This document shows, in pieces, positions 30,217 through 49,699 of a DNA stretch of 64,000 nt. The stretch's first letter is position 1. Every line of letters starts with the position of its first letter. The translations under genes and the position numbers were made by a program. The DNA comes from Enemella evansiae (GTDB lineage: Bacteria; Pseudomonadota; Alphaproteobacteria; Rhodobacterales; Rhodobacteraceae). The stretch lies in NCBI GenBank assembly GCA_017255395.1, contig JAFKDC010000020.1:1-64000 (forward strand), given 5' to 3'. A model generated the notes under the pieces. It was not told where the DNA came from, ran no database searches, and saw only the letters and a program-made list of their open reading frames with translations.

Positions 30217-30750
30217 TTAGACCGGCAAAACCAAGGCATTGGGCACCAGCAGCGTATCGTAGACGGCTATCCGTGATGCCAAAAGCAGGCTGCCGTCGTC
30301 CTGCGGGCGGAACCGGTCGATCATGCGTCCGGCTTGGTGCAATCGGCCTTCCGGAAGCTCGGACAGGGTTTCGATCAGCAGGTAGTTACATCCGGCCAAC
30401 ACCGTCCCGTCCTCTTCGATCCCGGTGACGCGCTCGTTGGTGATGTAATGGCGCAGGTAACGCGGCCCGAACATCGAGGTCTCGCTGATTGCCAGCGCGC
30501 GATCCGAGATCATGCCGCGCCCTTCGCAATAGACCAGGCCCACCGGTCGGTCGTCATCGAAGTTCTCGCGGCTGGTGATGTTGTAGAACGCGTCCTGGGT
30601 GAAGAAGCGCGGCCAGTCCTTCAGGTCGCCGTCGTCCAGCACCGCGCAATAGGCGGCGTTGAATTCGGACACGGCCTGGCGCGCCGCGCGGCGCGCGGCG
30701 AGCGTGTCGCGCTCTGACACGGGCTCGAATACGGTTGCCATCACAGTCAC
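30217..30750 (-). CDS. Ring-hydroxylating oxygenase small (beta) subunit
   Basis: 177 residues, SnoaL/NTF2-like fold of Rieske oxygenase beta subunits: SEFNAAYCAVLDDGDLKDWPRFF, YNITSRENFDDD, RYLRHYITNERV and AGRMIDRFR. GTG 30750 overlaps the alpha stop (GTGA), with ATG 30741 as an alternative. It forms the alpha3beta3 oxygenase with the C-terminal part of the protein encoded at 30747-33566. Last gene of the unit that starts with the decarboxylase at 34549. Proposed role: 6-hydroxypicolinate 3-hydroxylation (PicB-type). Confidence 0.88.
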   Translation of the reverse strand: MTVMATVFEPVSERDTLAARRAARQAVSEFNAAYCAVLDDGDLKDWPRFFTQDAFYNITSRENFDDDRPVGLVYCEGRGMISDRALAISETSMFGPRYLRHYITNERVTGIEEDGTVLAGCNYLLIETLSELPEGRLHQAGRMIDRFRPQDDGSLLLASRIAVYDTLLVPNALVLPV

Positions 30751-33566
30751 AGACCCATCTCCTTGCGCCAGTATTGATACATCGAGCGGATCGCGGATTC
30801 CGAGATCAGCGTATCCGAGGTGCCGGTCGGCACCGCCGGGTTCAGCGCCACCAGGTGTGCGCCCTCTTCCGTGTCCAGCATCCCGTCCTGCACGAATTTG
30901 ATCGCCTCGTTGTCTTCCAGCCCGAGAAAGCCCGCGGGGCCCATCAGGTTGCCCTGGCGCAGGCGGTGCCGGGTCATTTCCTCGTCATCGTCGGCATAGC
31001 CGAACATCGTCCAGATCATGGTGAACTCGTTCGGGCCGGTCGGCACGATCTGCCGCACGCCCAGCGTGTTCATCTCGCGCTGCACGATCAGGCCGGGCCA
31101 GATCACCTGCATGGTCACCGACCAGGGGCTGTCGAACTCGGGGTGGAAGTCCATCAGCCGGGTGTCTTCCAGCGTCATGCCGTCGCGATAGGCGCGCATC
31201 TGCGATTTGTTGTCCTCGGATACCGCTCCGTCGCTCTTGGCCGAGGCCATGGTCGAGTGGCAGCCCTTGGGGTCGACGATCATCGCAGACTTGTTGCCCG
31301 CCACCAGCAGGCCGAAGGTGACAAGGAACGTGTGCAGCAGCGTGGCGTGATAGGGATCTTTCAGGTTTTCGGGATAGAGCTTCCAGTTGCCGTTCAGCGT
31401 GTGCCGGTAGTGGCCCAGCACCTTCAGTTCGCGCCCGGAAAAGACCGCGTCGAAATCGGTCAGCATCTCCTCGCCGAGGTAGTCCTCGAAGGGTTCCACA
31501 TCCTGGCGGAACGATGCGAAGATCGCACCGTTGCGGGTGGTCACGTTCAGCTTGCGCAGACCGTGGTTCTCGGGGCGGAAGTCCGGGCCCATCCCCCCCT
31601 TGCCGTCGGCACCGCGGCGGAAGGGCACGCCGGCCAGGTTGCCTTTCAGATCGTAGCTCCATTCGTGGTAGGGGCAGACGAATTCCTCGGCATTGCCGCG
31701 CAGCTTGCGGCAGAACTCGGCGGCGCGATGGGCGCAGCGGTTCTCGAAAACGTTGACGCCGCCCTCGGCATCGCGCGCCACCACCACCGAGGTTGGTCCG
31801 ACATAGGAGCGGATGAAATCGCCGGTTTCGGGGATCTCGGCTTCGAGCCCCACATAGTTCCACGTCTTGCCGCGGAAAATCCGTTCGACTTCGCGGTCAT
31901 AGATTTCCTGGCTGGTGTAGACCCAGTCGGGAATACGGTCCAGGCCGGAAGCGGGCCAGACGAACCGCTTCTCGATCGGCAACATTTTCATTTCATCCTC
32001 CTCGAGCGTGGCAAGGTCAATATTGGTATCGGAAAGCTGCGCGGGATCGACCGGCATCGCGCCGGCGATCAGCCCGCGCGCAGCGCGCAGCAGGGCCGCG
32101 TCACCGAAGTCGATACAGGCGACGACGCGGTTTTCGTCGTCGAGACAGAAGAAGGCCGGGGCCTCGCCGTCGCGGCGCACCGTACGAAGATCGGGCGCGG
32201 GCGCACCGACGATCTGCAGGGTGCCGCCGAACAGATCCGACCAGAACCAGGGCAGGTCGTCAGCGCCCGGCACCTGGCCAGAGATGGCGCGCGCCGCGCG
32301 GTCGGCGGAGAGCTGTGCATTCTGCCAGCTTTCGACCCGGGATTCGCGGCCCGAGATCTCGTGGCGCGCCACCGCCACGTCTCCGACCGCATAGATCGAG
32401 AAGTCCGAGGTCTGGTTGCGCGCGTTGACGACAATGCCCCCGGCCTCTGCCGTGGCGAGGCCGGCCTCGGCGGCCAGGCCGTCATTGGGCACGGCGCCGA
32501 CGCCGACGATGATGCAATCGGCCTCGACCAGCGTGCCGTCGCTCAGCGTCACACCCCGGTCCGAGACCGAGCCGACCCCGGTGCCGAGATGCAGCGCCAC
32601 GTCGTTCTGTTCGGCCACCCAGGACAGGAAGTGTCCGGCCTCTTCCGGCAGAAGCCGTTTGAGCAGCCGGTCCTGCGCCTCGATCACCGTGGCCTGCTTG
32701 CCCAGAGACCGCGCCGCCGAGGCCAGTTCAAGCCCGATGAAGCCGCCGCCGATCACGGCCACCCTTTCAGCCCTCTGCAACGCCGCGCCCAGCCGTTCGC
32801 TGTCTCCGGCATCGCGCAGGTAGTGCAAGGCGACCCTGTCGGCCCCCTCGAAGGGAATGCGCCGGGCCGACGCGCCGGTGGCCAGTACCAGCATGTCGTA
32901 GGCCAGCGTCTCGCCATCCCCGAGCACCACCTGTTTGGCCTCGCGGTCGATGCCGCCGACCCGCGTGCTCAGCCGCAGATCTATATCGAGGCGCTCGGTC
33001 TCATCCGCTTCAAAGACATGGGCGTCGCTCAGCCGGGTCCGCCCCAGCAGCAGATCCTTGGACAGGGGCGGGCGTTCATAAGGCGGGTGCGCCTCTTCGC
33101 CCAGCATCACGATGGGGCCGCCAAACCCATGTCGCCGCGCGGCGCGGGCCGTTTCGGCCCCGGCCTGCCCGGCGCCGACGATCACCATGCGGCGGAAATC
33201 CTTCGGTGCGGCGGACACCCCGGCCCTTTGCGGGGTGGCATCGGTGACCGGCGCGCGGGCCTCGGTGTCGATCCAGACGATGCCGTCCTCGACCTTGACC
33301 GCATAGGTGGGAATGTCGCGGGCCACCGGCGGCCCCATGGCCTTGCCGGAGCGGATGTCGAACAGCCCCTGGTGCAGCGGGCATTCGATGCAGCCGTCGA
33401 CCACATGCCCGTCGGTCAGGATCGCAAAGGCATGCGTGCAGATATTGCCGTTGCAGAAGATCTCTCCGTCGAGCGCATAGAGCCCGAGCCGGAGACCGTC
33501 CACCTCGACGCCGACAGCGCCCTTGGCGTGCACCTCTTCGGCCGGAATGGAGGCGTGCCAGCTCAT
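30747..33566 (-). CDS. picB: Fused Rieske ferredoxin - FAD reductase - Rieske oxygenase alpha
   Basis: One uninterrupted frame of 939 residues. (a) 1-110: Rieske ferredoxin with C43-x-H45 and C62-x2-H65. (b) 123-510: FAD/NAD ferredoxin reductase with IVGAGQAGAETA and a second GGGFIG motif. (c) From 526: Rieske oxygenase alpha with C611-x-H613, C631-x2-H634 and iron-site H740/H745 (DPYHATLLH). No stop separates (b) and (c), yet an ideal ribosome site GAGGAGG lies five bases before in-frame ATG 31991 (residue 526), so a free alpha chain may also be made. ATG 33566 overlaps the decarboxylase stop. With a decarboxylase and 2,5-dihydroxypyridine genes beside it, it most resembles the four-component 6-hydroxypicolinate 3-monooxygenase PicB. 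Confidence 0.85.
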   Translation of the reverse strand: MSWHASIPAEEVHAKGAVGVEVDGLRLGLYALDGEIFCNGNICTHAFAILTDGHVVDGCIECPLHQGLFDIRSGKAMGPPVARDIPTYAVKVEDGIVWIDTEARAPVTDATPQRAGVSAAPKDFRRMVIVGAGQAGAETARAARRHGFGGPIVMLGEEAHPPYERPPLSKDLLLGRTRLSDAHVFEADETERLDIDLRLSTRVGGIDREAKQVVLGDGETLAYDMLVLATGASARRIPFEGADRVALHYLRDAGDSERLGAALQRAERVAVIGGGFIGLELASAARSLGKQATVIEAQDRLLKRLLPEEAGHFLSWVAEQNDVALHLGTGVGSVSDRGVTLSDGTLVEADCIIVGVGAVPNDGLAAEAGLATAEAGGIVVNARNQTSDFSIYAVGDVAVARHEISGRESRVESWQNAQLSADRAARAISGQVPGADDLPWFWSDLFGGTLQIVGAPAPDLRTVRRDGEAPAFFCLDDENRVVACIDFGDAALLRAARGLIAGAMPVDPAQLSDTNIDLATLEEDEMKMLPIEKRFVWPASGLDRIPDWVYTSQEIYDREVERIFRGKTWNYVGLEAEIPETGDFIRSYVGPTSVVVARDAEGGVNVFENRCAHRAAEFCRKLRGNAEEFVCPYHEWSYDLKGNLAGVPFRRGADGKGGMGPDFRPENHGLRKLNVTTRNGAIFASFRQDVEPFEDYLGEEMLTDFDAVFSGRELKVLGHYRHTLNGNWKLYPENLKDPYHATLLHTFLVTFGLLVAGNKSAMIVDPKGCHSTMASAKSDGAVSEDNKSQMRAYRDGMTLEDTRLMDFHPEFDSPWSVTMQVIWPGLIVQREMNTLGVRQIVPTGPNEFTMIWTMFGYADDDEEMTRHRLRQGNLMGPAGFLGLEDNEAIKFVQDGMLDTEEGAHLVALNPAVPTGTSDTLISESAIRSMYQYWRKEMGL
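31977..32004 (-). promoter_or_regulatory. Internal ribosome-binding site and start inside the Rieske fusion
   Basis: On the minus strand GAGGAGG is followed by ATGAA and then in-frame ATG 31991 (MKMLPIEKRF) and ATG 31985. This is the signal expected of a separate alpha-subunit gene, although the reductase frame runs straight through it. Confidence 0.6.
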
Positions 33567-34549
33567 GCCGTTGCCTCCGCGCTCTCGGCCAGTTGCGGCA
33601 GGCCAAGCAGCGCCGCGGCGTTGTCGTGGCACAGCTTGCGGCGCGTGGCCGCGTCGACCGGCGCGGTCTCGATGAACGCGACCGCCGTGTCGGAATCCTC
33701 GTAGGGGTAGTCGACCGAGAACATCACCCCGTCCTCGCCCATCTCGCCCAGGGCCCCGGCAAGCGCGGCATGCGAGCAGACCCCCGAGGTGGTCATCACG
33801 ATGTTGCGGGTGAAATAGGCCGACGGGGCCAGCTCCAGCTGCGTTCCCATCGGATAGGCGCCGAAGCGCGAATCGTAGCGCCAGCGCAGGAAGGGCAGCG
33901 CCTCGCCCATGTGCCCCAGCACGATCTTCACCTTGGGGAACCGGTCGAACACGCCCGAGAACAGCAGGCGCAGCGCGTGGCTGCCGGTCTCGACGCCCCA
34001 GCCCCAGACCGCGCCGTGCAGGACCGGCTGGCCCTCCAGCACATAGGGCGTGGCATAGGCGTTGGTCGGATGCAGGTAGAACGGCACGTCCAGGCGCTGA
34101 AGCTCGGCCCAGAAGGCATCGTATTTCGGGTCGTCGTAATAGACGCCCTGGGTATGGCCGTTCACCAGGCAGCCCAGAAAGCCCAGATCGGCAACCGCGC
34201 GGTGCAGCTCTTCTGCCGCAACCTCCGGGTCGTGCATCGGCAGCGCCGCAAGGCCCGACAGGCGGTCGGGGCGCTGCGCGACCTTTTCGGCCAGAAAGTC
34301 GTTGGCCCGCTGTGCGGCCTCGGTCGCGGTGGCGGGTTCTTCGCCCTGCGCGCCCGGCCCGGTCAGCGACAGCACGCTGCGCACGATATTGCCGCGATCC
34401 ATGGTCTCGATCCGTTCGCCGTCGAAGTCGCCCAACCTGCGGGTCAGGATCTCGGCCTGGTCGCGCGGGATCAGCTTCAGGAAGGCTTCCGAATGCCGCT
34501 CGAACCCGGGCGCCATGAAATGCTCTTCGAAAGTGATCTTGGGGGTCAT
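33563..34549 (-). CDS. picC: Amidohydrolase-2 family decarboxylase (3,6-dihydroxypicolinate type)
   Basis: 328 residues of the ACMSD / gamma-resorcylate decarboxylase family. Metal ligands are seen as E8-x-H10 in FEEHF, His in FYLHPTN, His in VLGHMGEALPF and Asp in FSVDYPYED. These enzymes are non-oxidative decarboxylases of hydroxy-aromatic acids. PicC of the picolinate pathway belongs here and makes 2,5-dihydroxypyridine from 3,6-dihydroxypicolinate; the neighbouring NicX-type enzyme uses exactly that product. First gene of its unit, with an operator-like motif 41-56 bases upstream. A nicotinate pathway (NicC) would not need it. Confidence 0.82.
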   Translation of the reverse strand: MTPKITFEEHFMAPGFERHSEAFLKLIPRDQAEILTRRLGDFDGERIETMDRGNIVRSVLSLTGPGAQGEEPATATEAAQRANDFLAEKVAQRPDRLSGLAALPMHDPEVAAEELHRAVADLGFLGCLVNGHTQGVYYDDPKYDAFWAELQRLDVPFYLHPTNAYATPYVLEGQPVLHGAVWGWGVETGSHALRLLFSGVFDRFPKVKIVLGHMGEALPFLRWRYDSRFGAYPMGTQLELAPSAYFTRNIVMTTSGVCSHAALAGALGEMGEDGVMFSVDYPYEDSDTAVAFIETAPVDAATRRKLCHDNAAALLGLPQLAESAEATA

Positions 34550-34589
34550 GTTTCTCCTCCTGTCGCGGGTGCGATCCGTTATTTATACA

Positions 34590-34605: not shown

Positions 34606-34634
34606 TTTAAGGCAAGCCCGATCTGCACTTTTTC

Positions 34635-35918
34635 CTAAAGCAGAAGGTCGGGAATGAGCGTCGAGAGCCCCGGCACATAGGTGATCAGCAGAAGCACCAC
34701 GAGGTTGACGGCCAGGAAGGGCCAGACCCCCGCGATGATCTCGGTCACCGGTTTCTGCAAGGTCGACGAGGCCACGAAAAGATCCAGCCCGAAGGGTGGC
34801 GTGACCATGCCAAGCGCGATGTTGACCGCCACGATCATCCCGAAATGCACCGGGTCGAGACCCAGATGCATGGCTACCGGATAAAGTGCCGGGACCAGCA
34901 TCAGCTGGATCGAGTTCGGGTCGATGAACATCCCGGCGATGATGAAGGCGACGTTCACGATCATCAGGAAGACCACCGGCCCGACCTGCATCTCGTCGAG
35001 AAAGCCGATGAGGGTGGCGGGGATCTGGGCCAGCGTGATGAAGTAGGACAAGGCCGTGCCGATGGCCAGCAACAGGAAGATTACCGCATTCTGGACAATC
35101 GCCTGTTCGGCCACCCTCGCCAGCGTCTTCAGGTCAAGGCTGCGATAGATGAGCATCTCGACGAAGATCGCGTAGACCACGCTCATGACCGCGGCCTCGG
35201 TGGGCGTGAACAGGCCACTGTAGATTCCGCCGAGGATCAGCACCGGCATCCCCAGCGCCCAGCCCGCACGCCGAATGGTCGAGGCGATCTCGGCCAGCCT
35301 GGCGCGGGGATCGCCGCGAACGCCCGAGCGCCGCGCCTCGATCATGGTCAGCACGGCGCAGGCCAGCCCAAGGATGACGCCTACGCCCACCCCCGCGGCA
35401 AACAGCGCGGCAATCGAGGTGCCGGTGATCCAGCCATAGACGATCAGGGTAATCGACGGCGGTATCAGCAAGGCGGTTTCCGCCGAGGACACGATCAGCC
35501 CCAGCGCGAAGCGGTCGCGGAATCCGACCCGCCTGAGCTCGGGGTAGAGGATCTTGCCCATGGCGGCGACGGTGGCCGGGGCCGAGCCCGAGACAGAGCC
35601 GAACCCCATGGCCCCGCCGATGGCGGTATAGCCGATCCCGCCCCGCAGATGCCCGACAAGCGCACGGACCACATCGGTCAGGCGGGTCGCGATCTGCCCC
35701 TGCCCCATCAGCTGGGCCGCGAACAGGAAGAAGGGGATCGCCAGCAGCAGTGTCTGGTTGATGCCCGCGGTCATGCGCTGCGGCAGGATCAGGTCGGGCA
35801 GGTTGGCGAAGAAGCCCGCCTTGACGGCCAGCGCGGGAATGCCCAGCACCATGAACATCTCGAACCCTGCGATCAGCAGGACGGCGGCCAGAACGCCGAT
35901 GGCGGCGACAAGGATCAT
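34635..35918 (-). CDS. dctM: TRAP transporter large permease (DctM), system 2
   Basis: 427 residues, about 12 helices, the normal DctM length. It shows the family features GSVSGSAPATVAAMG and LIPPSITLIVYGWITGTSIAALFAAG-type loops, and FGLDLFVA near the end. ATG 35918 overlaps the dctQ stop. It imports an organic acid using the sodium or proton gradient, with DctQ and the binding protein at 36457. Its place between the maleamate amidase and the decarboxylase suggests a pyridine carboxylate or a pathway acid as substrate (inference). Confidence 0.92.
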   Translation of the reverse strand: MILVAAIGVLAAVLLIAGFEMFMVLGIPALAVKAGFFANLPDLILPQRMTAGINQTLLLAIPFFLFAAQLMGQGQIATRLTDVVRALVGHLRGGIGYTAIGGAMGFGSVSGSAPATVAAMGKILYPELRRVGFRDRFALGLIVSSAETALLIPPSITLIVYGWITGTSIAALFAAGVGVGVILGLACAVLTMIEARRSGVRGDPRARLAEIASTIRRAGWALGMPVLILGGIYSGLFTPTEAAVMSVVYAIFVEMLIYRSLDLKTLARVAEQAIVQNAVIFLLLAIGTALSYFITLAQIPATLIGFLDEMQVGPVVFLMIVNVAFIIAGMFIDPNSIQLMLVPALYPVAMHLGLDPVHFGMIVAVNIALGMVTPPFGLDLFVASSTLQKPVTEIIAGVWPFLAVNLVVLLLITYVPGLSTLIPDLLL

Positions 35919-36418
35919 TCGCCCGCCTCCCCGGTTCCGTCGAAGCGCTGGATCGCCCCCACGAGGCTCGCGCCATAGCGCAGCGCCAGCAGCCCGAAGC
36001 CCGCAGAGGGCGCGACATAAAGCCAGCCCGTCGAGATCCCCAGCGTTGCGCTGACCTGTCCCGAGCCGAAGACAAAGGCTGCCATCCCTCCGCTGATCCA
36101 GGCCATGTAGAGACAGAAGACAATGCCAACCGCGTCCAGGATGCGCCGCAGGGGAAGCCCGCTGCGGCGCGCGATCCGGTCGCGCCATGTGTCGACGGCG
36201 ACCTGCTTGCCACGCTCCAGCGCCAGCCCGGCCGCAAGGAACACCAGGAAGATGTTCAGGCTGCGCACCACCTCGTCGATCCAGCCGAACGAGGCCGCCA
36301 GCGGGCCGCCGACCTGGCGGATCAGGACGCTGAAGGCAAACAGCAGCGTCATTGTCAGAAGGAGCGTCACGACGCTGATCCTTTCGATCAGCCGGACCCC
36401 TGAAAGCAATCGTTGCAT
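35915..36418 (-). CDS. dctQ: TRAP transporter small permease (DctQ), system 2
   Basis: 167 residues with four membrane helices (ISVVTLLLTMTLLFAFSVLIR first). The conserved DctQ segment is LNIFLVFLAAGLALERGKQVAVD. Overlaps dctM by four bases and follows the binding-protein gene by 38 bases. Confidence 0.9.
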   Translation of the reverse strand: MQRLLSGVRLIERISVVTLLLTMTLLFAFSVLIRQVGGPLAASFGWIDEVVRSLNIFLVFLAAGLALERGKQVAVDTWRDRIARRSGLPLRRILDAVGIVFCLYMAWISGGMAAFVFGSGQVSATLGISTGWLYVAPSAGFGLLALRYGASLVGAIQRFDGTGEAGE

Positions 36419-36456
36419 CGCAACTTTCCCCTTTGGATACGGGTCCCGGCCCGGCG

Positions 36457-37467
36457 TCAGTTCATGACCGCGTCATAGGCCGCCCGGTAGACTTCGAAGA
36501 TCGCCCGGCCCTTGTCGCCGGCGCGCGCGAGGTAGGCATCGCGACCGGCCGGGAACATCACCGCCCGGAACTGCGCCAGCTCGTCCTCGGACAGCTCGTG
36601 CACCGTCAGCCCGGCCTCGCGGATCTTCCGCAGCGAGGCCTCTCCCGCGGCGGCCTTGTGGGCGATCATTTCGGGGATGGTCTCGTCCAGGGCGGCGGTG
36701 ATGGCGGCCCGGTGGCTGTCCTCGAGCCCCGACCAGACCGCGGGGTTGAACAGGATCACGTTCTCGATGGCCCCGTGCCAGGACAGGGTCAGATGCTCCT
36801 GCACCTCGAAGAACTTCATGTTGTAGATCGTGTCGAGGGGGTTTTCCTCGCCGTCGACGATGCCGGTCTGAAGCGCGGTGTAGAGCTCGCCGAAGGGGAT
36901 CGGCACGGCGGTGACGCCGAGCGACCTGAAGGCCTCGACCAGCACCATGGATTCCATCACCCGGAAAGTCTGGCCCGAAAATTCTTCCGGGCGGGCGATC
37001 GGCGCGTTCGAGGTGAACTGCTTGGTGCCGTTGGGATACAGGCCGATGCAGGTCACGCCCAGCTCGTTGAAGCTCTCGCAGAAGGCATCGGCGAAACCGG
37101 CGTCGCGGATCGCCTGCGCCTTCTCCGCATCCGCCGGATAGAGGAAGGGGATATCCATGATCGAGGCCACCGGGTTGAACCCGCCCATGAAGGCGACCGG
37201 CCCGGCGGTGGCATCCAGCGCACCGAACTGCACCGCTTCGGTCATCTCGCGCTGGCCGCCAAGCTGGCTCTGCGGAAAGATCTGCAGCGCCAGCGCGCCA
37301 TCGGTCCTGGCCGCCACCGCCTCTGCCATGGCCTCCAGCATGACATGGGTGGTGGACTGCGGGGTCTCTACATGGCCGATGCGCAGGGTCACCTCCTGCG
37401 CCTGGGCGATGCCGGTGCCGAGCAGGCACAGCGCCGCTCCGGTCACGATCCTGTCAAGAAATGCCAT
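36457..37467 (-). CDS. dctP: TRAP transporter binding protein (DctP), system 2
   Basis: 336 residues. ATG 37467 gives a clear Sec signal (AALCLLGTGIAQAQ); the frame upstream is not coding. The DctP fold shows PQSQLGGQREMTEAVQFGALD and the carboxylate-binding Arg region TFRVMES, then GELYTALQTGIVDGEENPLDTI. Periplasmic capture of a small carboxylate for the DctQM pair. Confidence 0.92.
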   Translation of the reverse strand: MAFLDRIVTGAALCLLGTGIAQAQEVTLRIGHVETPQSTTHVMLEAMAEAVAARTDGALALQIFPQSQLGGQREMTEAVQFGALDATAGPVAFMGGFNPVASIMDIPFLYPADAEKAQAIRDAGFADAFCESFNELGVTCIGLYPNGTKQFTSNAPIARPEEFSGQTFRVMESMVLVEAFRSLGVTAVPIPFGELYTALQTGIVDGEENPLDTIYNMKFFEVQEHLTLSWHGAIENVILFNPAVWSGLEDSHRAAITAALDETIPEMIAHKAAAGEASLRKIREAGLTVHELSEDELAQFRAVMFPAGRDAYLARAGDKGRAIFEVYRAAYDAVMN

Positions 37468-37494
37468 CGGTCTCCTCCGTTCCATCTGGCGGGC

Positions 37495-37514
37495 GGCCCC
37501 CGCTCCCGGGGGCC
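37495..37514 (-). terminator. Hairpin between maleamate amidase and dctP
   Basis: Stem GGCCCCC / GGGGGCC with a 6-base loop in the 53-base gap between the amidohydrolase and dctP genes. No T-run. It probably tunes expression within the operon rather than ending it. Confidence 0.35.
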
Positions 37515-37520
37515 AGGGGG

Positions 37521-40069: not shown

Positions 40070-40079
40070 GCCACCCTCC

Positions 40080-40954: not shown

Positions 40955-40965
40955 CGCCGCGAGGC

Positions 40966-42612
40966 TCAGTCGAACGGGCTGGCCGATCCGTAATCCGCGC
41001 CGCCCACGCTGATCTCGACACTGGCCGGATCGACATCGTCGACATGCGCGGCTTTGTAGTGCGTCACCATCTGCGGAAACATCAGCACCAGGATTACCAT
41101 GGCCAGCTGGATGCAGATGAAGGGAATCGAGCCGCGATAGATTTGCCCGGTGGTCACCCTGGCGACACTCTGGCCGGTCACCTTGTCGGCATAATCCCGG
41201 GACGGCGCCACCGAGCGCAGGTAGAACAGCGCAAGGCCGAAGGGCGGATGCATGAAAGAGGTCTGCATGTTCACCGCGATCAGGACGCCGAACCAGACCA
41301 TGTCGATCCCGAAGGTCTCGGCAACCGGGCCGATCAGCGGAATGACGATGAAGGCCAGTTCGAAGAAATCGAGGAAGAAGGCCGCGATGAAAACGAAGAC
41401 CGACACGAAGATCAGAAATCCCAGCTCTCCCCCCGGCAGGTTCAGCAGCAGGTGTTCGACCCAGAGGTCGCCATTCACCGCCCGGAAGGTGAGCGCGAAG
41501 ACAGTGGAACCCACCAGGATGAAGATCGCGAAGCTGGTCAGGCGCATCGTCGCCTCCATCGCCTGGTAGAACCGCGCGAGGCTGAGCCGCTTCTTGGCCA
41601 GCGCAAGCACCAGCGCGCCCAAGGCACCCATTGCGCCGCCTTCGGTCGGGGTGGCGACGCCGATGAAGATCGTGCCGAGCACGAGGAAGATCAGGGTCAG
41701 CGGCGGAACCATGGCAAAGATCGTGCGCTGCGCGATCTGCGACAGCAGGTTCAACGACAGAAGCCGGTCGATACAGGCAATGGCAAAGACCACGAGGCTC
41801 CAGCCGGACAGGGCCAGCACGGTCCGCGCGCCGCGCGTTGCTTCCGGGTCGACCAGCAGGGACATGCCGATCCAGGTTGCCACGCCACCGACGGCGAAGG
41901 CGACCAACAGCGACAGTGCGCCCGAGCGCCCCTTCTCCGTGCGCCCGGCCATCACCTCGGCGGGCAGCGAGGGTGTCTTGCGCGGCCGGAACAGCGCAAT
42001 GTAGGCCACATAAAGCATGTAGGCGCCGGTCAGCACGAGGCCCGGGATGATCGCGCCCTGATACATGTCCCCGACCGGACGGCCCAGCTGGTCGGCCAGG
42101 ATGATCAGGGTGAGCGAGGGCGGAATGATCTGCGAAAGCGTGCCCGAGGCCGCGATCACGCCGGTGGCGACGCTGCGGTCATAGCCGTAGCGCAACATGA
42201 TCGGCAGCGAGATCAGCCCCATCGAGATCACCGAGGCCGACACCACGCCGGTGGTGGCTGCCAGAAGCGCGCCGACCGCGATCACCGCGAAAGCCAGCCC
42301 GCCACGGATCGGCCCGAAAAGCTGGCCGACAGTCTCCAGCAAATCCTCGGCCATGCCGGAGCGTTCCAGCAGAAGCCCCATGAAGGTGAAGAATGGCAGC
42401 GCCAGCAGCACGTCGTTCATCATGATGCCGAATACGCGCTGCGGCAGGACCTGAAGCAGAGAGGACGACAGTAGCCCCAGCTCGATGCCGACGAAGGCGA
42501 AGATGATGCCGCAGGCGGCCAGCGAGAAGGCCACCGGGAAGCCCAGCAGCATCAGCACGATCAGGCTGAAGAACATGATCGGCGCGATGTTTTCGATCAG
42601 AAAAGCGGTCAT
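40966..42612 (-). CDS. dctM: TRAP transporter large permease, extended type, system 1
   Basis: 548 residues, longer than standard DctM (about 430) because of an added helical segment around GALSLLVAFAVGGVATWIG. This is the type found with TakP-like binding proteins for 2-oxo acids, chloroaromatic acids and similar. Core motifs include LLAATTGVVSASVISMG, LSQIIPPSLTLIILADQ, GVATPTEGGAMGALGAL and SFMHPPFGLALFYLR. ATG 42612 overlaps the dctQ stop. Confidence 0.92.
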   Translation of the reverse strand: MTAFLIENIAPIMFFSLIVLMLLGFPVAFSLAACGIIFAFVGIELGLLSSSLLQVLPQRVFGIMMNDVLLALPFFTFMGLLLERSGMAEDLLETVGQLFGPIRGGLAFAVIAVGALLAATTGVVSASVISMGLISLPIMLRYGYDRSVATGVIAASGTLSQIIPPSLTLIILADQLGRPVGDMYQGAIIPGLVLTGAYMLYVAYIALFRPRKTPSLPAEVMAGRTEKGRSGALSLLVAFAVGGVATWIGMSLLVDPEATRGARTVLALSGWSLVVFAIACIDRLLSLNLLSQIAQRTIFAMVPPLTLIFLVLGTIFIGVATPTEGGAMGALGALVLALAKKRLSLARFYQAMEATMRLTSFAIFILVGSTVFALTFRAVNGDLWVEHLLLNLPGGELGFLIFVSVFVFIAAFFLDFFELAFIVIPLIGPVAETFGIDMVWFGVLIAVNMQTSFMHPPFGLALFYLRSVAPSRDYADKVTGQSVARVTTGQIYRGSIPFICIQLAMVILVLMFPQMVTHYKAAHVDDVDPASVEISVGGADYGSASPFD

Positions 42613-43217
42613 TTGTCGCCCCGTCCCTCGTCGTCGGCCTTGTCCAGCTCGGCCTTCAGTTCCTGCATCAATTCTTCTTCCTCGCTCGGACCGGCAGGCT
42701 GCATCGGATCCGGGCACCGGCCCATCAGGAATCCGAGGCATTTGATCAGGTGCGACAGCCCCGCCAGCAGCAGAAATCCGAAGCCGAGCGGCACCAGAAG
42801 CTTGGCCGGCCAGCGGATCAGTCCCCCGGCATTGGGCGATGTTTCACCGCTTTCGAAAGACGCCAGAAAATTGGGAATGCCGTACCAGACGATCAGCAGA
42901 ACCGCCGGAAACATCAGGAACATGACCCCAAGGATCTCGATCCAAAGCTGAACGCGCCGGGGAAGTTTCGAGGCCAGGATATCGACCCTGACATGGCCGT
43001 TTTTCAAAAGCGTGTATCCGGCCGGCAGCAGAAAGATCACGCCGAAGAGATAAAGCTGGGCTTCCAGCCAGGCGTTCGAGCTGACCTGAAAGAATTTGCG
43101 GCTCAGCGCGTTGCCCGCACTGACCAGGACGGCGACGATGACGGCCCAGGGCAGGATACGCCCCAGAACCAGGCTCATGCCGTCAATGGCGCGCGAGAAA
43201 TGGAGTAATGCGGTCAT
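42609..43217 (-). CDS. dctQ: TRAP transporter small permease, system 1
   Basis: 202 residues, four helices, then an unusual acidic C-terminal tail rich in Glu and Lys (EEEELMQELKAELDKADDE). ATG 43217 follows AAAGGAAG; an upstream in-frame ATG at 43235 is less well placed. The motif WLEAQLYLFGVIFLLPAGYTL is typical of the family. Partner of the genes at 40966 and 43296. Confidence 0.9.
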   Translation of the reverse strand: MTALLHFSRAIDGMSLVLGRILPWAVIVAVLVSAGNALSRKFFQVSSNAWLEAQLYLFGVIFLLPAGYTLLKNGHVRVDILASKLPRRVQLWIEILGVMFLMFPAVLLIVWYGIPNFLASFESGETSPNAGGLIRWPAKLLVPLGFGFLLLAGLSHLIKCLGFLMGRCPDPMQPAGPSEEEELMQELKAELDKADDEGRGDK

Positions 43218-43295
43218 TGGCTTCCTTTCGGACACGGGGCAGCGCCCGGCGCCGCGGGCGGCGGCGCCGGAACATCGTGTCGAAACTGGCTGGAG

Positions 43296-44387
43296 TTACT
43301 GGTTGCGCGTCACGGCGCCGGTGGTGAAGCCGTCCAGGGCGTTCTCGGCGATACGGAACCAGGCCGCCTCGTCCTGCTGGAATTTCTTCCACTGCGGATA
43401 GATCTCGGCGAAGCGCGGGCTTTCGTCGGACAGTTCTTGCCAGACCTCCTGCGCCGCCGCATAGGCCGCTTCCATGACCTCACGCGGGAAATAGGCCACT
43501 TTCGCGCCTTCCGCGATCAGCTTGCGGATGGCGATCGGGTTCAGCGCATCATACCGTGCCAGCATGTCGCGCGACTGTTCGGCGCAGGCGGTTGCGAAGA
43601 CTGCCTGAAGATCGGCGGGCAGGTTGGCCCAGGCCTCTTGCCCGACAAGACAGGTAATCGCGGCACTGCCTTCCCACCAGCCCGGCGAATAGTAGTAGGG
43701 CGCGACCCGGTGCAGACCGAGGCGGTAATCGTCATGCGGGCCGATCCATTCGGCCGCGTCGATCGCGCCTTTCTCCAGCGACGGATAGATGTCGCCGGGG
43801 GCGATCTGCTGCGGTACGGCGCCCAGTTTCGACAGCACCTTGCCGCCAATACCGCCGATCCGCATGGTCAGGCCCTTGACGTCTTCGAGCGAGTTAATCT
43901 CCTTGCGGAACCAACCGCCCATCTGCACGCCGGTGTTGCCGACGTTGAAGTTCACCACATTGAAGTCACTGTAGAGGTCACGCAGCAGTTCCTGACCGCC
44001 GCCCTGCACCAGCCAGGCCAGTTGCTGGCGGGCATTGAGACCGAAGGCCATACCGGCATCGAAGGCAAAGGCGGGCTCGCGGCCGACGTGGAACGAGGCC
44101 AGCGTGTGGCAGCACTCGACAGAGCCCTGCCCCACGGCCTCGAGGTTCTGCGAAGCGGGTACGATCTCGCCGCCCGGGAAAACCCGGATCTCGAACCGAC
44201 CGCCGGACAATTCCTTGACCCGTTCGCTCAGAAGTTCGGCAGAGCCGTACATCACGTCCAGGGTGTTCGGCCAGCTGGTCGACATACGCCAGCGGACGAC
44301 ATCCTGGGCTCGGGAAACAGAGGGGGCCGCCATCAGGCCCGCGCTGGCTGCCGCCGCTGTGGCTGTCAGAAAATTGCGTCTTTTCAT
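43296..44387 (-). CDS. TRAP transporter binding protein, TakP-like, system 1
   Basis: 363 residues. ATG 44387 after GGGAGG. A Tat-type signal (KRRNFLTATAAAASAG) suggests export in folded form, as for TakP relatives. Typical features are TSWPNTLDVMYGSAELL, VFPGGEIVPA, MRIGGIGGKVLSKLGAVPQQ and KGAIDAAEWIGPHDDYRLGLH. The TakP subgroup binds 2-oxo and aromatic carboxylates, often with a cation. Located next to the MarR-type regulator with operator motif B in its promoter, it is the best candidate for picolinate uptake (inference). Confidence 0.88.
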   Translation of the reverse strand: MKRRNFLTATAAAASAGLMAAPSVSRAQDVVRWRMSTSWPNTLDVMYGSAELLSERVKELSGGRFEIRVFPGGEIVPASQNLEAVGQGSVECCHTLASFHVGREPAFAFDAGMAFGLNARQQLAWLVQGGGQELLRDLYSDFNVVNFNVGNTGVQMGGWFRKEINSLEDVKGLTMRIGGIGGKVLSKLGAVPQQIAPGDIYPSLEKGAIDAAEWIGPHDDYRLGLHRVAPYYYSPGWWEGSAAITCLVGQEAWANLPADLQAVFATACAEQSRDMLARYDALNPIAIRKLIAEGAKVAYFPREVMEAAYAAAQEVWQELSDESPRFAEIYPQWKKFQQDEAAWFRIAENALDGFTTGAVTRNQ

Positions 44388-44433
44388 TCCGTATCCTCCC
44401 GTTGGTTGCAGGCTCCTCAACCTGCGATGCAAT

Positions 44434-44449
44434 GTATGCTGTACAAATA
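44434..44449. promoter_or_regulatory. Shared operator motif B (TRAP system 1)
   Basis: GTATGCTGTACAAATA, 47-62 bases before ATG 44387. It is followed by a second half-site like it (ATGCAGTACA at 44452-44461). It is identical to motif A in its first 12 bases. Confidence 0.6.
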
Positions 44450-44660
44450 ACATGCAGTACACTGAACGATGTGTCAAGAATGCATGTTTAGGATTATTTT
44501 ATTTACTTTCAGTGTCTTGCACGCTGAACGGGAAAGGGTCTGGCCAGAATGCCGCACCAGATCTGCGGCAAACTGCGTCGTCATTATGCTGAAACGGATG
44601 GGCTGGAATCGGTGGACTCGATCCATGCGGCAGCCGATCCCGGCGGGCTTTCCGCGCGGC

Positions 44661-45173
44661 CTAGATCCGCTGGCTCATCGGCGCGCGGGAGGCATCGTTA
44701 TTCGCATCGATCATCTTGCGCAAAGCGCGCATGAAGACCTTGTATTCCTCTGGTGTCAGCGGCGACACCATCCGGTCCTGAGCATCTTCCATCAGTGGCT
44801 GTACCTCGCGCACCAGGCGACGGCCAGCCTCGGTGATATGCACGATCAGCGCCCTCCGATCCTGCTTGGACCGTTCCCGCGAGGCAAGGCCGCGATTGAC
44901 CAGCCGTTTGATGACATCAGCGCCGCTGGTTCGGTCGATGCCAACGATCTTGGAGATCGACAGCTGATCCATCTCGGCATCCGAGCACAGCACCGATAGT
45001 ACGGCAAACTGCACGGCGGTGAGGTCCAGCCCCTCGCAAGCCTGAGTAAACAGGCCGATGTGGATCTGATGCAGGCGCCGCACGAGATAACCCGGCCGGT
45101 CCCAAAGGTCGGCGTATTTCTGGGGATTTGCGCTCTCGATGGAGGCTTGCTCGCTCACCACGTTGTTCTTCAT
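44661..45173 (-). CDS. MarR-family transcriptional regulator (PicR-like position)
   Basis: About 170 residues from ATG 45173, with a GTG one codon earlier. Winged helix region: LTAVQFAVLSVLCSDAEMD, ISKIVGIDRTSGADVIKRLVNRGL, RRALIVHITEAG. It is divergent from the molybdenum-hydroxylase genes and beside TRAP system 1. In the known picolinate pathway a MarR-type repressor (PicR) controls the cluster and responds to a pathway intermediate. The three shared motifs at 34590, 40878 and 44434 are its likely sites. Confidence 0.85.
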   Translation of the reverse strand: MKNNVVSEQASIESANPQKYADLWDRPGYLVRRLHQIHIGLFTQACEGLDLTAVQFAVLSVLCSDAEMDQLSISKIVGIDRTSGADVIKRLVNRGLASRERSKQDRRALIVHITEAGRRLVREVQPLMEDAQDRMVSPLTPEEYKVFMRALRKMIDANNDASRAPMSQRI

Positions 45174-45247
45174 CACGGTTTAACCTTCTCTACTGCGCCA
45201 GCTGCGTCTCACCGGGTGGCTGGCGTCCTGTCGTTGGAACAATTTCG

Positions 45248-45322: not shown

Positions 45323-45345
45323 ACATCGGTCTAGCGCAGCAGGGA

Positions 45346-47703
45346 ATGGAGGCGAGATTGGGCACAGGAATCGGAGCGCGCGTGCCGCGCAAAGAGGACA
45401 GTCGGCACCTGAAGGGCAAGGCAGAGTTCGTCGGCGACATCAAGCTGCCGGGCCTGTGGGAGGCGGCTTTCGTCCGCAGTCCGCTGGCCCATGCTACGCT
45501 GGGCACGATCACCAAGCCCGCCGGTGCGGAAAACCGTGTTTTCACTGCCGGGGACATGACCGATCTGATGCCGATTCGCACTGTGTCCACCCTCCCCGGC
45601 TACAAGCTTTCGGATTATCCGGCGCTGGCCCGGGACAAGGTACGCTACGTGGGCGAATGCATTGCCATCTGCATTGCCCCCACCCGCGCCGAGGCCGAGG
45701 ACCTGGCCGAAGCCGTCGAGGTCGACCTCACCCCCCTGCCTCCGGTTACCGACGTGGTGACCGCGCTGAAGGACGACGCGCCGCTGCTACACGAGGACTG
45801 GGGCGACAATCTTTTCCTGACCACCGAGTATGACAGTGACCTGAGTGAAGCCAAGGCCAAGGCGACCGTCGTGCTGTAACGCGAGTTCAAAACCGCCCGC
45901 CAGGCGATGAACCCGATGGAGGGCAAGGGCGTGCTGGCGCATTGGGACCACAAGGCCGACCAGCTTCAGGTCCATACCTCGACCCAGGTGCCGCATGTGA
46001 TCCGCACCGGTATCGCCGAATGCCTCGGGCTGGATCAGGCCAATGTTCGGGTGATCGCGCCCGACGTGGGCGGCGGTTTCGGCTACAAATGCGTCCTTCA
46101 ACCCGAAGAGCTCTCGGTCTCCTGGGTTGCCCGCAAGACCGACCGCCCGATTCGCTGGACCGAGGACCGGCGCGAACACCTGACTGCCGGGGCCAACACC
46201 CGCGAACACAGCTACAAGGTCACCGCCTATGCCGACGACAGCGGACGGCTTCTGGGGCTGGATGCGGATATCTGGGTAGACGTCGGCGCCTATTCGGTCT
46301 GGCCCTTCACCGCCTGCCTCGAAGCGGCACAGGCCGGTGGCAACCTGCCCGGCCCCTACGACCTTCCGGCCTATGCCTGCCGGACCTACTCGGTGGCCAC
46401 CAACAAGCCCGCCTTCACGCCCTACCGCGGGGTGGCGCGCCCCGGGGTCTGCTTCGTGATCGAGCTGATCATGGATGCCATCGCCCGCGCGGTCGACCGC
46501 GACCCGCTCGACGTGCGCTGTCTCAACCTCGTGCAGGGCAGCGCGATGCCCTATACTAATATCACCGGAAAGTTCTACGACTCCGGCGATTATCCCGCCG
46601 CCGCCCGCGAGGCCGCGCGAATGATCGACGCGGACCAGTTCCGCGAGCGCCAACGCGCCGCCGCGGCCGAGGGCCGGTTCATCGGCCTTGGCTTTGCCAG
46701 CTTCACCGAGCAATCCGCCCATGGGGCCAAGGTCTTCGGGTCATGGGGGCTGTCGGTGGTGCCGGGATACGAGCAGGCCACCGTCAAGCTGAACCCCTCG
46801 GGCGCGGTCGAGGTGCTGTCGGGCAACCACTCCTTCGGCCAGGGGCTGGAGACCACGATCGCGCAGGTTGCCTGCGAATGGCTGAACGTCGACATCTCGC
46901 GCGTGCGCGTGCTGATGGGCGACACCGGGCGGACGCCGAACTCTTTCGGGGCCTTCGCCTCGCGCGGGATGGTGATGGCCGGCGGCGCCGTGTCCAAGGC
47001 CGCCGAGGAACTGGCACGCCGCATTCGGCTGCATGCCGCACACCTGCTGCAATGCCAGCCCGAGGGCGTGGTCCTGCGCGACGGCGCGGCCTGGAACGAT
47101 CAGGCCTCGGTCAGCTTTGCCGAGATCGCCCGCACCTGGTATCTGCGCCCCGACCTGCTGCCCGAGACCGTCGAAACCACCGGACTGGAAGTCACCGAAG
47201 GCTACAAGCCCGATATCGACACCGGCGTGTTTACCTATGCCACCCATGCGGCCATCGTCGAGGTCGACCCGGACACCGGCCGCACCGAGATCCTCGATTA
47301 CGTCATTTTCGAGGATTGCGGGCGCCGGGTGAACCCGCTGATTCTGGACGGGCAATCCTATGGCGGCGCGGCGCAGGGGATCGGCACCGCGCTGTTCGAG
47401 GAAACCCTTTACGACGGCGCGGGCCAGCCGGTGACCTCGACCCTGGCCGACTACATCATGCCGGGGCCTGCCGAGCTGCCGCATTTCCGGCTGGGGCACA
47501 GCGAAACCCTGTCCCCCTATTCGAGACACGGGATCAAGGGCGTCGGGGAAGGCGCGGCCATTGCGCCCGCGGGCGCCATCGTCAACGCGATCAACAATGC
47601 CCTGGCCCCGATCGGGGTCGAGCTGAACCAGGTGCCCGCAACCCCGCACCGCGTCCTTTCGGCGATCTTCGCCGCGCAATCCAGGAAAGAGGCCGCACAA
47701 TGA
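45346..47703 (+). pseudogene. Molybdenum hydroxylase large subunit, interrupted by TAA
   Basis: The frame encodes a xanthine-dehydrogenase-type large subunit of about 785 codons. An in-frame TAA at 45877-45879 splits it into 177 residues (a/b hammerhead domain: PRKEDSRHLKGKAEFVGDI to EAKAKATVVL) and a part restarting at ATG 45907 (598 residues: molybdopterin-binding GGGFGYK, PYRGVARPGVC, GSGxxS-like GNHSFGQGLETT and catalytic Glu in KGVGEGAAIAPAG). Family members have Glu or a similar residue at the stop position. The split falls between two domains, so a two-chain enzyme is possible. Proposed role: picolinate (or nicotinate) hydroxylation at C6. Confidence 0.8.
45907..47703 (+). CDS. Molybdopterin-binding part of the split hydroxylase
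   Basis: 598 residues, beginning 27 bases after the TAA at 45879. No strong ribosome site is seen (CAGGCG before ATG 45907; a second ATG at 45916), so expression would rely on re-initiation. It contains all visible molybdenum-cofactor residues and the catalytic Glu. Its stop overlaps the FAD-subunit start (ATGA at 47700). Whether it makes a working enzyme with the 177-residue fragment (45346-45879) is open; natural two-chain large subunits are known in some nicotinate hydroxylases. Confidence 0.6.
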   Translation: MNPMEGKGVLAHWDHKADQLQVHTSTQVPHVIRTGIAECLGLDQANVRVIAPDVGGGFGYKCVLQPEELSVSWVARKTDRPIRWTEDRREHLTAGANTREHSYKVTAYADDSGRLLGLDADIWVDVGAYSVWPFTACLEAAQAGGNLPGPYDLPAYACRTYSVATNKPAFTPYRGVARPGVCFVIELIMDAIARAVDRDPLDVRCLNLVQGSAMPYTNITGKFYDSGDYPAAAREAARMIDADQFRERQRAAAAEGRFIGLGFASFTEQSAHGAKVFGSWGLSVVPGYEQATVKLNPSGAVEVLSGNHSFGQGLETTIAQVACEWLNVDISRVRVLMGDTGRTPNSFGAFASRGMVMAGGAVSKAAEELARRIRLHAAHLLQCQPEGVVLRDGAAWNDQASVSFAEIARTWYLRPDLLPETVETTGLEVTEGYKPDIDTGVFTYATHAAIVEVDPDTGRTEILDYVIFEDCGRRVNPLILDGQSYGGAAQGIGTALFEETLYDGAGQPVTSTLADYIMPGPAELPHFRLGHSETLSPYSRHGIKGVGEGAAIAPAGAIVNAINNALAPIGVELNQVPATPHRVLSAIFAAQSRKEAAQ

Positions 47704-48521
47704 AACCCGTCGCATTCTCGCATCTGCGCGCCGACACCGCCGAGGCCGCAGCCAAGGCACTGGGCCAGGGCGCCAAGATCCTCGCCGGAGGCCAGTCGCT
47801 TGGCCCCATGCTGAACCTCAGGCTGGCTCGCCCCGAGGCGCTTGTCGGCGTCTCGCGCCTGCCCGGACTGTCCGAGATCCGCGAGGCCAGGGACCGCATC
47901 GTCATCGGGGCGGGTGTCACCCATGCCCGGATCGAGGATGGCGCCGACGCCATCGCGCTGCCGCCGATGATGCGCCACGTGGCACGCGGCATCGCCTATC
48001 GCGCGGTGCGCAACAAGGGCACCATCGGCGGGTCTCTGGCCCATGCCGACCCGGCCGCCGACTGGCTGAGCTGCCTGACCGCGCTGGATGCCGGGCTGGT
48101 CCTTCAGGACGCGACCGGCAAGGACCGGCGGGTGCCGGTCGCGGGCTTCATGCTGGGGGCCTATCGCACCGTGCTGACCCCCGGGGACATCCTGACCGGC
48201 GTCGAAATCCACCCCCGGATGCGCGACGCGCTCTGGGGCTACGACAAGGTCTGCCGCAAGGTGGGTGAATTTGCCGATGCCATAGGCGCCCTCGTGGTCC
48301 ATCCCGACAGCGGCTTCATCCGGCTTGTCGCCGGGGCCACCGGCGGCCCGCCGCTGATCCTGACCGAGCTTGGCACGGAGATCGCCGCCAGCGCCAGGCA
48401 TCCCGGTCGCGACGCGGTGCGCGCCGCGCTTTCCGCCCGACTGACCGATGCCGATGACGTGAAGCTGCATCTGCTGACCACGGCCCTGTGCCGCGCGATC
48501 GAAAAGGTACTGCCCGCATGA
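47700..48521 (+). CDS. Molybdenum hydroxylase FAD-binding (medium) subunit
   Basis: 273 residues, CoxM/XdhB-type FAD protein. Flavin motifs are ILAGGQSLGPMLNLRLARPE (about 27-46) and NKGTIGGSLAHADPAADW (about 100-117). Receives electrons from the [2Fe-2S] subunit. Both ends overlap neighbours by four bases, so the three genes form one translation unit with the large subunit at 45346. Confidence 0.92.
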   Translation: MKPVAFSHLRADTAEAAAKALGQGAKILAGGQSLGPMLNLRLARPEALVGVSRLPGLSEIREARDRIVIGAGVTHARIEDGADAIALPPMMRHVARGIAYRAVRNKGTIGGSLAHADPAADWLSCLTALDAGLVLQDATGKDRRVPVAGFMLGAYRTVLTPGDILTGVEIHPRMRDALWGYDKVCRKVGEFADAIGALVVHPDSGFIRLVAGATGGPPLILTELGTEIAASARHPGRDAVRAALSARLTDADDVKLHLLTTALCRAIEKVLPA

Positions 48522-49699
48522 CCATGCACACCACCGACCTCGCCACGCAACATACCGCCCCCGAACCGCTGGACATCCGCCTGACCGTGAACGGCAGCGA
48601 CAGCGCCGTGCGGGTCGCCCCGCGCACCCAACTGGCCGAGATCCTGCGCGACGAACTGAACCTGACCGCCACGCATCTGGCCTGTGAACAGGGGGTCTGC
48701 GGCGCCTGCACGGTGATGGTGGACGGTCGCCCGGTCCGCGCCTGCCTGACCTTCGCCCGCGATTGCGACGGCAGCCGGGTCGATACCCTGGAAGGCTGGC
48801 AGGGCGACCAGCTGATGGACCGGCTGCGCGATGCCTTCCAGCGCAACCACGCGCTGCAATGCGGCTTCTGCACGCCGGGCATGATGACCACCGCCCGCGA
48901 CCTCGTGGAGCGGCTGGACAGCGCCGATGAGACCCGCATCCGCAACGAGCTGTCCGGCAACCTGTGCCGCTGCACCGGCTATGTCGGCATTGTGGGCGCG
49001 ATCCGCGAGGTGATCGAGGAACGCGACGCCGCGGGCATTCCCGCCCGCCCGACGGCGCCGATGGCACCACGCCAGGCACCCGGTTTCGCCCCCTTCACCG
49101 CCCGCCCGGACACCACCGCCGAGGTCACCCCGGCGATGTCCGGCGAAAGCCGGGTCGAGGATGGCTGGACCGTCGTGCGCCGCAAGGTGGTGCTGGACCA
49201 TCCCCCCGAAGCCGTCTGGGCGCATTTCCGCGATCTGCCCGCAGTGGCGCGATGCCTGCCCGGCGCAGACCTGTCTGAAACCGACGGCGACCGGTTCTCT
49301 GGTCATGTCGGCGTGCGTTTCGGCCCGATCTCGGCCCGCTTCGAGGGCGAGGGCCGCTTTGCCGCCGACGATGCCACCCGCGAGGGCAAGGTCAGCGGCC
49401 GCGGCAAGGATCGCGGCGGCCAGTCGGGTGTCGAGGGCGAACTGAGCTTCACGGTCAACCAAGACGAGGTGGACACGAAATCGACAGTCGACGTGGCCTT
49501 TCGCTTTCGCATCGAGGGCGTTCTCGGCCAGTTCAACCGCCCCGAACTGGTCAATGGCCTCGTGGATTATATCCTTGGGGAATTCGTGGCCAACTGCAAC
49601 GCGGTCCTGTCCGGAGGCGCGGTGCGCGAGAGCCGGGGCGTCAGCTTCATGGCCGTGGCCCTGTCGGTCCTCAAGGGGCTGTTCCGGCGCCGCGGTTAA
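48518..49699 (+). CDS. [2Fe-2S] hydroxylase subunit fused to a CoxG (SRPBCC) domain
   Basis: 393 residues, twice the usual 160-170. Residues 1-170 are the small subunit: plant-type cluster Cys in LACEQGVCGACTV and RACLTF, and the second cluster in QCGFCTPGMM and NLCRCTGYVG. A proline-rich linker follows, then a CoxG/SRPBCC domain (about 210-393: VVLDHPPEAVWAHFRDLPAVARCLPGA split over its first strands). CoxG normally is a separate membrane-recruiting or maturation protein of CO dehydrogenase. The last 20 residues (FMAVALSVLKGLFRRR) look membrane-associating. The fusion may anchor the enzyme. Confidence 0.9.
   Translation: MTMHTTDLATQHTAPEPLDIRLTVNGSDSAVRVAPRTQLAEILRDELNLTATHLACEQGVCGACTVMVDGRPVRACLTFARDCDGSRVDTLEGWQGDQLMDRLRDAFQRNHALQCGFCTPGMMTTARDLVERLDSADETRIRNELSGNLCRCTGYVGIVGAIREVIEERDAAGIPARPTAPMAPRQAPGFAPFTARPDTTAEVTPAMSGESRVEDGWTVVRRKVVLDHPPEAVWAHFRDLPAVARCLPGADLSETDGDRFSGHVGVRFGPISARFEGEGRFAADDATREGKVSGRGKDRGGQSGVEGELSFTVNQDEVDTKSTVDVAFRFRIEGVLGQFNRPELVNGLVDYILGEFVANCNAVLSGGAVRESRGVSFMAVALSVLKGLFRRRG

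Follow-up and report, generated by a model that had tools for sequence, protein, structure and literature searches.

The main finding of this work is a gene in which a Rieske ferredoxin, a ferredoxin reductase and a Rieske oxygenase alpha subunit are encoded in ONE frame of 939 codons, with no stop between them and with the beta subunit encoded separately. It lies in the window, i.e., the whole 64,000-nucleotide stretch of DNA analyzed here, inside an island (30217-49699) whose best explanation, to which we give a probability of about 0.78, is a pic-type picolinate catabolic cluster in which the fused PicB would be a candidate self-sufficient oxygenase. The pathway itself is already known and the island is a further example of it; what is new is the fusion. 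A Rieske oxygenase usually depends on one or two further proteins for electron transfer, which restricts its uses and makes electron transfer harder to study. We lean towards the view that the fused proteins form the first natural class of self-sufficient Rieske oxygenases, a ferredoxin–reductase–alpha chain with a free beta subunit, which would have formed once in the PicB family by stop loss in a ferredoxin–reductase–alpha–beta operon and been kept across Alphaproteobacteria and in at least one genome of another class.

Through Pfam and PDB matches, the island was found to hold all the enzyme classes of the known pic (picolinate) cluster (Table 1). On the minus strand, read from right to left from 45176, a MarR-family gene, TRAP transporter 2 and the genes of NicE, NicD, NicX and NicF types are followed by TRAP transporter 1, the PicC-type amidohydrolase and then the Rieske genes down to 30217; the plus strand (45346-49699) carries a three-subunit molybdenum hydroxylase (L/M/S). 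At the coordinates of the preliminary description, Pfam matches confirmed the beta subunit, the Amidohydro_2 protein, the NicF-, NicD- and NicE-type enzymes, the MarR regulator, the molybdenum hydroxylase and two TRAP sets. The NicX-type call of that description also held, since the product, which had no match in the Pfam scan, matches a solved 2,5-dihydroxypyridine 5,6-dioxygenase. Its account of a Rieske oxygenase with ferredoxin and reductase did not hold in one respect, and missed what is most unusual here: ferredoxin, reductase and alpha are a single open reading frame. The called start of the beta gene and the end of the fused gene share 4 bases, and the picC-type gene shares another 4 with the start of the fused gene. 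DctM of TRAP transporter 1 probably has its true start further in, as the Pfam match begins at residue 100.

Table 1. Features of the island, with positions in the window, strand and the evidence for each assignment.
Feature	Positions	Strand	Evidence
Rieske oxygenase beta subunit (PicB-type), separate gene	30217-30750	-	PF00866 4.7e-11
Fused Rieske ferredoxin-ferredoxin reductase-oxygenase alpha, 939 aa	30747-33566	-	Pfam, one open frame
Oxygenase alpha domain, residues 526-939	30750-31991	-	best PDB match NagG 7c8z, E 2.3e-129
Ferredoxin reductase domain, residues 122-521 (FAD, NAD type)	32004-33203	-	BphA4 match over 127-521
Ferredoxin domain, residues 1-106	33249-33566	-	Rieske motif CTH..CPLH
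PicC-type 3,6-dihydroxypicolinate decarboxylase (predicted)	33563-34549	-	Amidohydro_2, relatives' identity
TRAP transporter 1 DctM	34635-36188	-	PF06808 7.8e-107
TRAP transporter 1 DctQ	35915-36418	-	PF04290 8.1e-23
TRAP transporter 1 DctP	36457-37524	-	PF03480 6.9e-74
NicF/PicF-type maleamate amidohydrolase (isochorismatase)	37521-38144	-	PF00857 1e-38; function by position and family
NicX/PicD-type 2,5-dihydroxypyridine 5,6-dioxygenase	38229-39260	-	solved 7cn3, E 5.5e-90, residues 3-342
NicD/PicE-type N-formylmaleamate deformylase (alpha/beta hydrolase)	39284-40135	-	PF12697 7.5e-19; synteny
NicE/PicG-type maleate isomerase (Amdase family)	40080-40829	-	PF17645 3.1e-21
TRAP transporter 2: DctM 40966-42741, DctQ 42609-43235, DctP 43296-44477	40966-44477	-	Pfam
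MarR-family regulator, PicR-like by family and position	44661-45176	-	PF01047 1.1e-07, PF12802 1.4e-07
PicA-type molybdenum hydroxylase large subunit, in-frame TAA 45877-45879	45346-47703	+	Pfam
PicA-type FAD subunit	47700-48521	+	PF00941 9.1e-40 in longer ORF 46743-48521
PicA-type [2Fe-2S] small subunit with C-terminal CoxG domain	48488-49699	+	PF01799 1.1e-24, PF06240 1.4e-12

According to excerpts of the Bordetella PicC paper (PMC10142695), picolinate is converted to 6-hydroxypicolinate, 3,6-dihydroxypicolinate, 2,5-dihydroxypyridine and finally fumarate by PicA, PicB, PicC and PicD-G, and Alphaproteobacteria were already predicted there to have pic clusters. Related loci were found by the amidohydrolase alone (80 of the 274 encoding a relative, some of them ending at contig ends). 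Within the fetched DNA, at least four of the seven other pic-type gene classes were present in 66 of these 80 loci, so the grouping is more than chance; all seven were present in 46, and none in two. Of the same 80 loci, 55 have a match to the NicE/PicG-type protein above 100 bits, and in 54 of these the identity reaches at least 70%.

By analogy with that pathway, a TRAP transporter would take up picolinate, the PicA-type molybdenum enzyme would convert it to 6-hydroxypicolinate, PicB would form 3,6-dihydroxypicolinate and PicC would decarboxylate this to 2,5-dihydroxypyridine, from which ring cleavage, deformylation, deamidation and isomerisation would lead to fumarate. We infer from the genes that 6-hydroxypicolinate is the actual substrate of PicB. 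All three PicA-type subunit genes are present, the large one with an in-frame TAA; a PicB-type multicomponent Rieske oxygenase, its parts fused, lies beside the other pic genes; and the genes from 2,5-dihydroxypyridine to fumarate (PicD, E, F and G types) are present, the PicE, F and G types being assigned by family and synteny only. The MarR-family gene has a PicR-like place in the cluster, which makes it a candidate PicR repressor, and its product would control the island.

The lower pathway is common to nicotinate catabolism and the role in substrate use is predicted from genes, so the cluster might serve nicotinate or another pyridine acid instead. We regard this as very unlikely: the PicC-like decarboxylase and the PicB-like oxygenase adjoin the lower-pathway genes, as in pic-type loci, and no NicC-type FAD monooxygenase was found among the Pfam matches of the proteins scanned in 30217-49699, in line with the preliminary description, which had reported no NicC. 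Its choice of picolinate over nicotinate is thus supported by gene content, synteny and the PicC-like and PicB-like relatives, and its word "complete" is weakened by the TAA. The idea that the island has its own transport fared unevenly. DctP of TRAP transporter 1 is indeed restricted, with matches above 100 bits in only eight fetched loci besides the window, all Rhodobacterales-type and 60-74% identical. Relatives of TRAP transporter 2, on the other hand, are present in three pic-type loci (L041, L078 and L098), and its DctP and DctM are 63-64% identical to those of the Bordetella locus among them (L078).

The decarboxylase assignment was approached through identities and trees. The product of 33563-34549 is 55-82% identical to 83 relatives, mostly encoded beside other pic-type genes, and 38-43% identical to five solved decarboxylases of other substrates. 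In an LG+G4 tree, the 84 pic rows lie on one side of a branch against the solved decarboxylases (support 92, branch not starred). In a mixture-model tree, the pic rows are not on one side of a branch (two changes, forced by starred branches), and three of the five solved decarboxylases fall together with the window in a starred set of 15 rows whose branches are very long. We take this grouping for a probable long-branch artefact. As to clustering with resorcylate-type enzymes, which the preliminary description had named as the outcome that would speak against its assignment, the identities and the LG+G4 tree favor PicC and the mixture-model tree does not. A resorcylate, carboxyvanillate or dihydroxybenzoate decarboxylase was rejected for this gene on identity and on one of the two trees, the other being contrary.

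The fused protein has a full set of domains in Pfam: Rieske_2 (residues 3-99), Pyr_redox_2 (126-419), Reductase_C (440-521), Rieske (568-650) and Ring_hydroxyl_A (714-937). Its ferredoxin CxH..CxxH motif, FAD motif, alpha CxH..CxYH motif and the alpha iron-site D-x-Y-H-x4-H with a late Asp are kept in all 21 full-length fused rows, and the NAD motif GGGFIG in 20 of them. AlphaFold2 predicted the ferredoxin and reductase domains with confidence (pLDDT of at least 90 in 30 of the 40 ten-residue blocks of the reductase domain), and gave values below 50 to the linkers at residues 107-119 and 524-549. The alpha domain, modelled without beta, was of mixed confidence, with several stretches below 50, and the overall pTM was only 0.50; both weaken the model. 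The picture suggested by the model is one of tethered domains on flexible linkers. Each of the best 50 Foldseek rows matches one part at a time; they are mostly ferredoxin-reductase-like flavoproteins, together with NagG and terephthalate dioxygenase alphas. Parts of the anthranilate 1,2-dioxygenase AndA, which provided the best NCBIfam models for alpha, beta and ferredoxin, were rejected since they scored below the cut-offs; for beta, the nearest model was AndAd.

PicB would accordingly be pictured as one polypeptide of about 100 kDa comprising ferredoxin, reductase and alpha joined by two short flexible linkers, presumably made at full length and assembling with the separate beta subunit. 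Electrons delivered by NADH would enter at FAD, move on to the tethered Rieske ferredoxin and then to the Rieske cluster of alpha, and end at the mononuclear iron, with no diffusing carriers; operation in this strain would be subject to the picA-L stop. We regard the fused PicB as a good candidate for a naturally self-sufficient Rieske oxygenase; what the sequences show is the open frame, its broad conservation, the single branch of its copies and the cofactor ligand motifs.

An artefact of sequencing or assembly, or a local accident in one strain, would be the most trivial explanation of such a frame, and two circumstances could suggest it: in the first search, which covered 147 genomes counting the window's own, only the window and one other genome (G009) showed the fusion, and there is a suspicious stop elsewhere in the same cluster. 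We consider it extremely improbable, as 26 distinct loci share the fusion, the window's included (25 seen complete), with pairs among the first 15 fused rows down to 52% identical, and all fall on one branch. The first set comprised 15 rows, window included, with all three parts in one frame, from Rhodobacterales-type genomes, Pacificispira and Bradyrhizobium; the later set comprised 27 fused rows, one of which (L164) duplicates another (L037), 21 being complete and four more completed afterwards. The fused loci belong to several alphaproteobacterial families and to one genome of another class.

Sampling of genomes, each sample counting the own genome within its own order, class or phylum, indicates that presence of the fusion is patchy but wide. 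In the order sample, an alpha match at E <=1e-100 occurred in 3 of 390 genomes, two of them in open frames above 900 aa. The class sample gave such a match in 34 of 385 genomes, with six in frames above 900 aa; these six are the matches with at least 73% identity, and the frames of the matches listed at 66% identity or less do not exceed about 520 aa, the one exception being a rejected frame of 816 aa. At E 1e-150, three of 398 genomes of the phylum sample had a match, all in frames above 950 aa, and one of these (G997) belongs to another class. Within single families, the match was in frames above 950 aa in four of four genomes (family of G585) and in frames above 940 aa in all five of 14 genomes that had one (family of G826). 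This census covers the PicB-type Rieske family only.

Loci of Cupriavidus, Caballeronia, Achromobacter, Pseudomonas and others with all three parts nearby have them in separate frames. In 52 rows, i.e., 51 places (L125 being the same as L152), alpha is immediately preceded on its own strand by a separate reductase gene, whose stop falls 28-85 bases before the point aligned with the alpha start of the window. The fused gene can thus derive from such an operon by stop loss.

Trees of both parts keep the fused rows together. In an alpha tree of 98 rows, a branch with SH-aLRT 99 sets the 21 fused ones apart from the rest, and none of 500 shuffles was as low; "split" in this tree includes 26 rows without a reductase match nearby on the same strand. 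A reductase tree of 72 rows, 51 of them split, likewise has the fused rows on one side of a branch (SH-aLRT 97). Before both trees, 13 loci that duplicated a place or covered less of it had been removed. In a more careful alpha tree of 54 rows (26 fused; 28 of the 77 split rows used; seven rows, most of them long-branched, excluded), the branch had UFBoot 99 and SH-aLRT 96, and a single change sufficed in 100% of 200 bootstrap trees. The fused group contains no unfused row in any of the three trees, whose long-branch warnings concern mostly distant unfused rows.

The simplest reading of these trees would be one fusion event, followed by spread that was partly by gene transfer, examples of the latter being Pacificispira next to Rhodobacterales-type rows and G997 in another class. 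Two independent fusions were considered, as the Bradyrhizobium reductase domain is only 38-40% identical to that of the window, and rejected since the reductase tree keeps all 21 together. Two candidate fusions outside the clade were also discarded: the 816-aa frame of G606 (L167) owes its length to an extension out of frame, and in G129 (L168) the reductase and the oxygenase are encoded in two different frames. L167 also holds, at 1270-3779, two unfused Rieske alpha genes in tandem, which share about 40% identity with the alpha of the window.

The alpha domain of the window begins at an internal ATG preceded by an SD-like GAGGAGG, with an energy of -11.8 kcal/mol that only 0.2% of in-frame positions equal; two other copies (L008 and L039) are alike. 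This raises the possibility of a dual product, in which the internal start would also, or mainly, make free alpha, and a few ferredoxin–reductase–alpha chains would serve an alpha3beta3 assembly of mostly free alpha. Bradyrhizobium copies fit such a scheme, with a GTG near the junction in five of six (-8.7 to -9.1, as good in 1.4-3.0% of positions) and an ATG at -10.3 in the sixth (L095), energies being taken at the aligned column. Other fused copies also have start candidates near the junction, as judged from the best candidates in range, a choice that flatters the signal. Against it, the signal is ordinary in six of nine Rhodobacterales-type rows, the Pacificispira row (L037) being counted among them (10-17% of positions as good), and in two copies (L147 and L165) even the two best start candidates, chosen in the same flattering way, lie at least 36 codons before the WP motif of alpha. 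We find a dual product possible and are inclined to doubt it; the internal start could be left over from the start of an ancestral alpha gene, or could still give rise to free alpha.

The large subunit gene of the molybdenum hydroxylase (picA-L) is interrupted by its TAA, and the frame resumes at ATG 45907, 27 bases on. In all 66 relatives that match above 300 bits, the matched part is free of stops; four of these are only about 36% identical and probably paralogues. The own genome holds no close paralogue of the large subunit, the next best match being 35% identical. The TAA is either a nonsense mutation or a sequence error. The preliminary description had called the island complete, which is doubtful for a large subunit carrying a stop that all 66 relatives lack in the matched part. 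The TAA and the lack of a close paralogue argue that this strain may be unable to start the pathway. The cluster could on these grounds be decaying, with picA-L a pseudogene in a remnant island, or be fed by 6-hydroxypicolinate or 3-hydroxypicolinate below the PicA step, a reading that we rate at not far short of an even chance; the open frames of the other cluster genes, however, are long and rich in G+C at third codon positions, and a single base error is possible in a draft of 93 contigs. The PicA-type small subunit, which carries the CoxG domain, has matches in many other pic-type loci that cover most of the protein. In the fused relative G009 (L156, 4496-6846 and 12271-13244), the picA-L and picC matches are each in two pieces in different frames; these apparent frameshifts could be decay or sequencing error.

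Among solved proteins, the closest alpha by sequence is that of the salicylate 5-hydroxylase NagGH (7c8z), a Rieske enzyme titled monooxygenase, which fits the hydroxylation expected of PicB; we understand NagGH to add a hydroxyl to a carboxylated ring. NagG, with 442 aa, forms a chain of its own and shows 45% identity to the alpha of the window in the fold match. Self-sufficient P450s are heme enzymes, unlike the Rieske protein of the window, and have another reductase family and another domain order than ferredoxin–reductase–alpha. They share with the window's frame the placing of redox partners and oxygenase in one chain, as excerpts on CYP116B46 describe (PMC7260179). The parts of a Rieske system are likewise rearranged in the methylxanthine N7-demethylase NdmCDE, where, according to excerpts of PMC4408171, a Rieske domain is fused to the reductase; unlike in the window, the oxygenase has there been parted from this Rieske domain and stays a separate chain, and the reductase is of FMN type.

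The pic clusters of Alcaligenes faecalis JQ135 and Bordetella bronchiseptica RB50 (picA1A2A3, picB1B2B3B4, picC, picGEDF, picR and picT in excerpts of PMC10142695) have the same enzyme classes for every step and a MarR regulator. In comparison, the window has ferredoxin, reductase and alpha of PicB as one protein, which would correspond to three of picB1-B4 if these are ferredoxin, reductase, alpha and beta, and it has another gene order, two TRAP systems and the picA-L stop. JQ135 and RB50 were set against the window by description; the sequences compared came from pic-type loci in Achromobacter, in other members of Bordetella and elsewhere. Excerpts of a 2025 perspective (PMC12445004) state that no self-sufficient Rieske oxygenase has been identified so far, and we found no report of a natural fused one among the papers listed from the open-licence literature of PubMed Central. 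If the reading of the fused PicB as self-sufficient is true, this conserved natural three-in-one enzyme would provide linkers and a domain order shaped by evolution as templates, would show directly whether tethering improves coupling, and would allow split and fused forms to be compared cleanly inside one enzyme family with one presumed substrate. The fusion may also mark alphaproteobacterial picolinate degraders.

Finally, the surroundings of the island hold genes of other kinds. To its left (10858-29860) are denitrification-type genes, namely NnrS, a Crp-type regulator, a COX1-family protein that we take to be NorB-like, a VWA protein, ApbE, NosD with ABC genes, nitrous oxide reductase and a Fer4_5/FMN_bind protein, presumably NosR-like; a Mutator-family transposase lies at 9809-10669. 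To its right, a DHDPS-family gene, a GntR regulator and a third TRAP transporter (50073-54530) are followed at 57863-63909 by oligopeptide-type ABC transporter genes and an aldehyde dehydrogenase.
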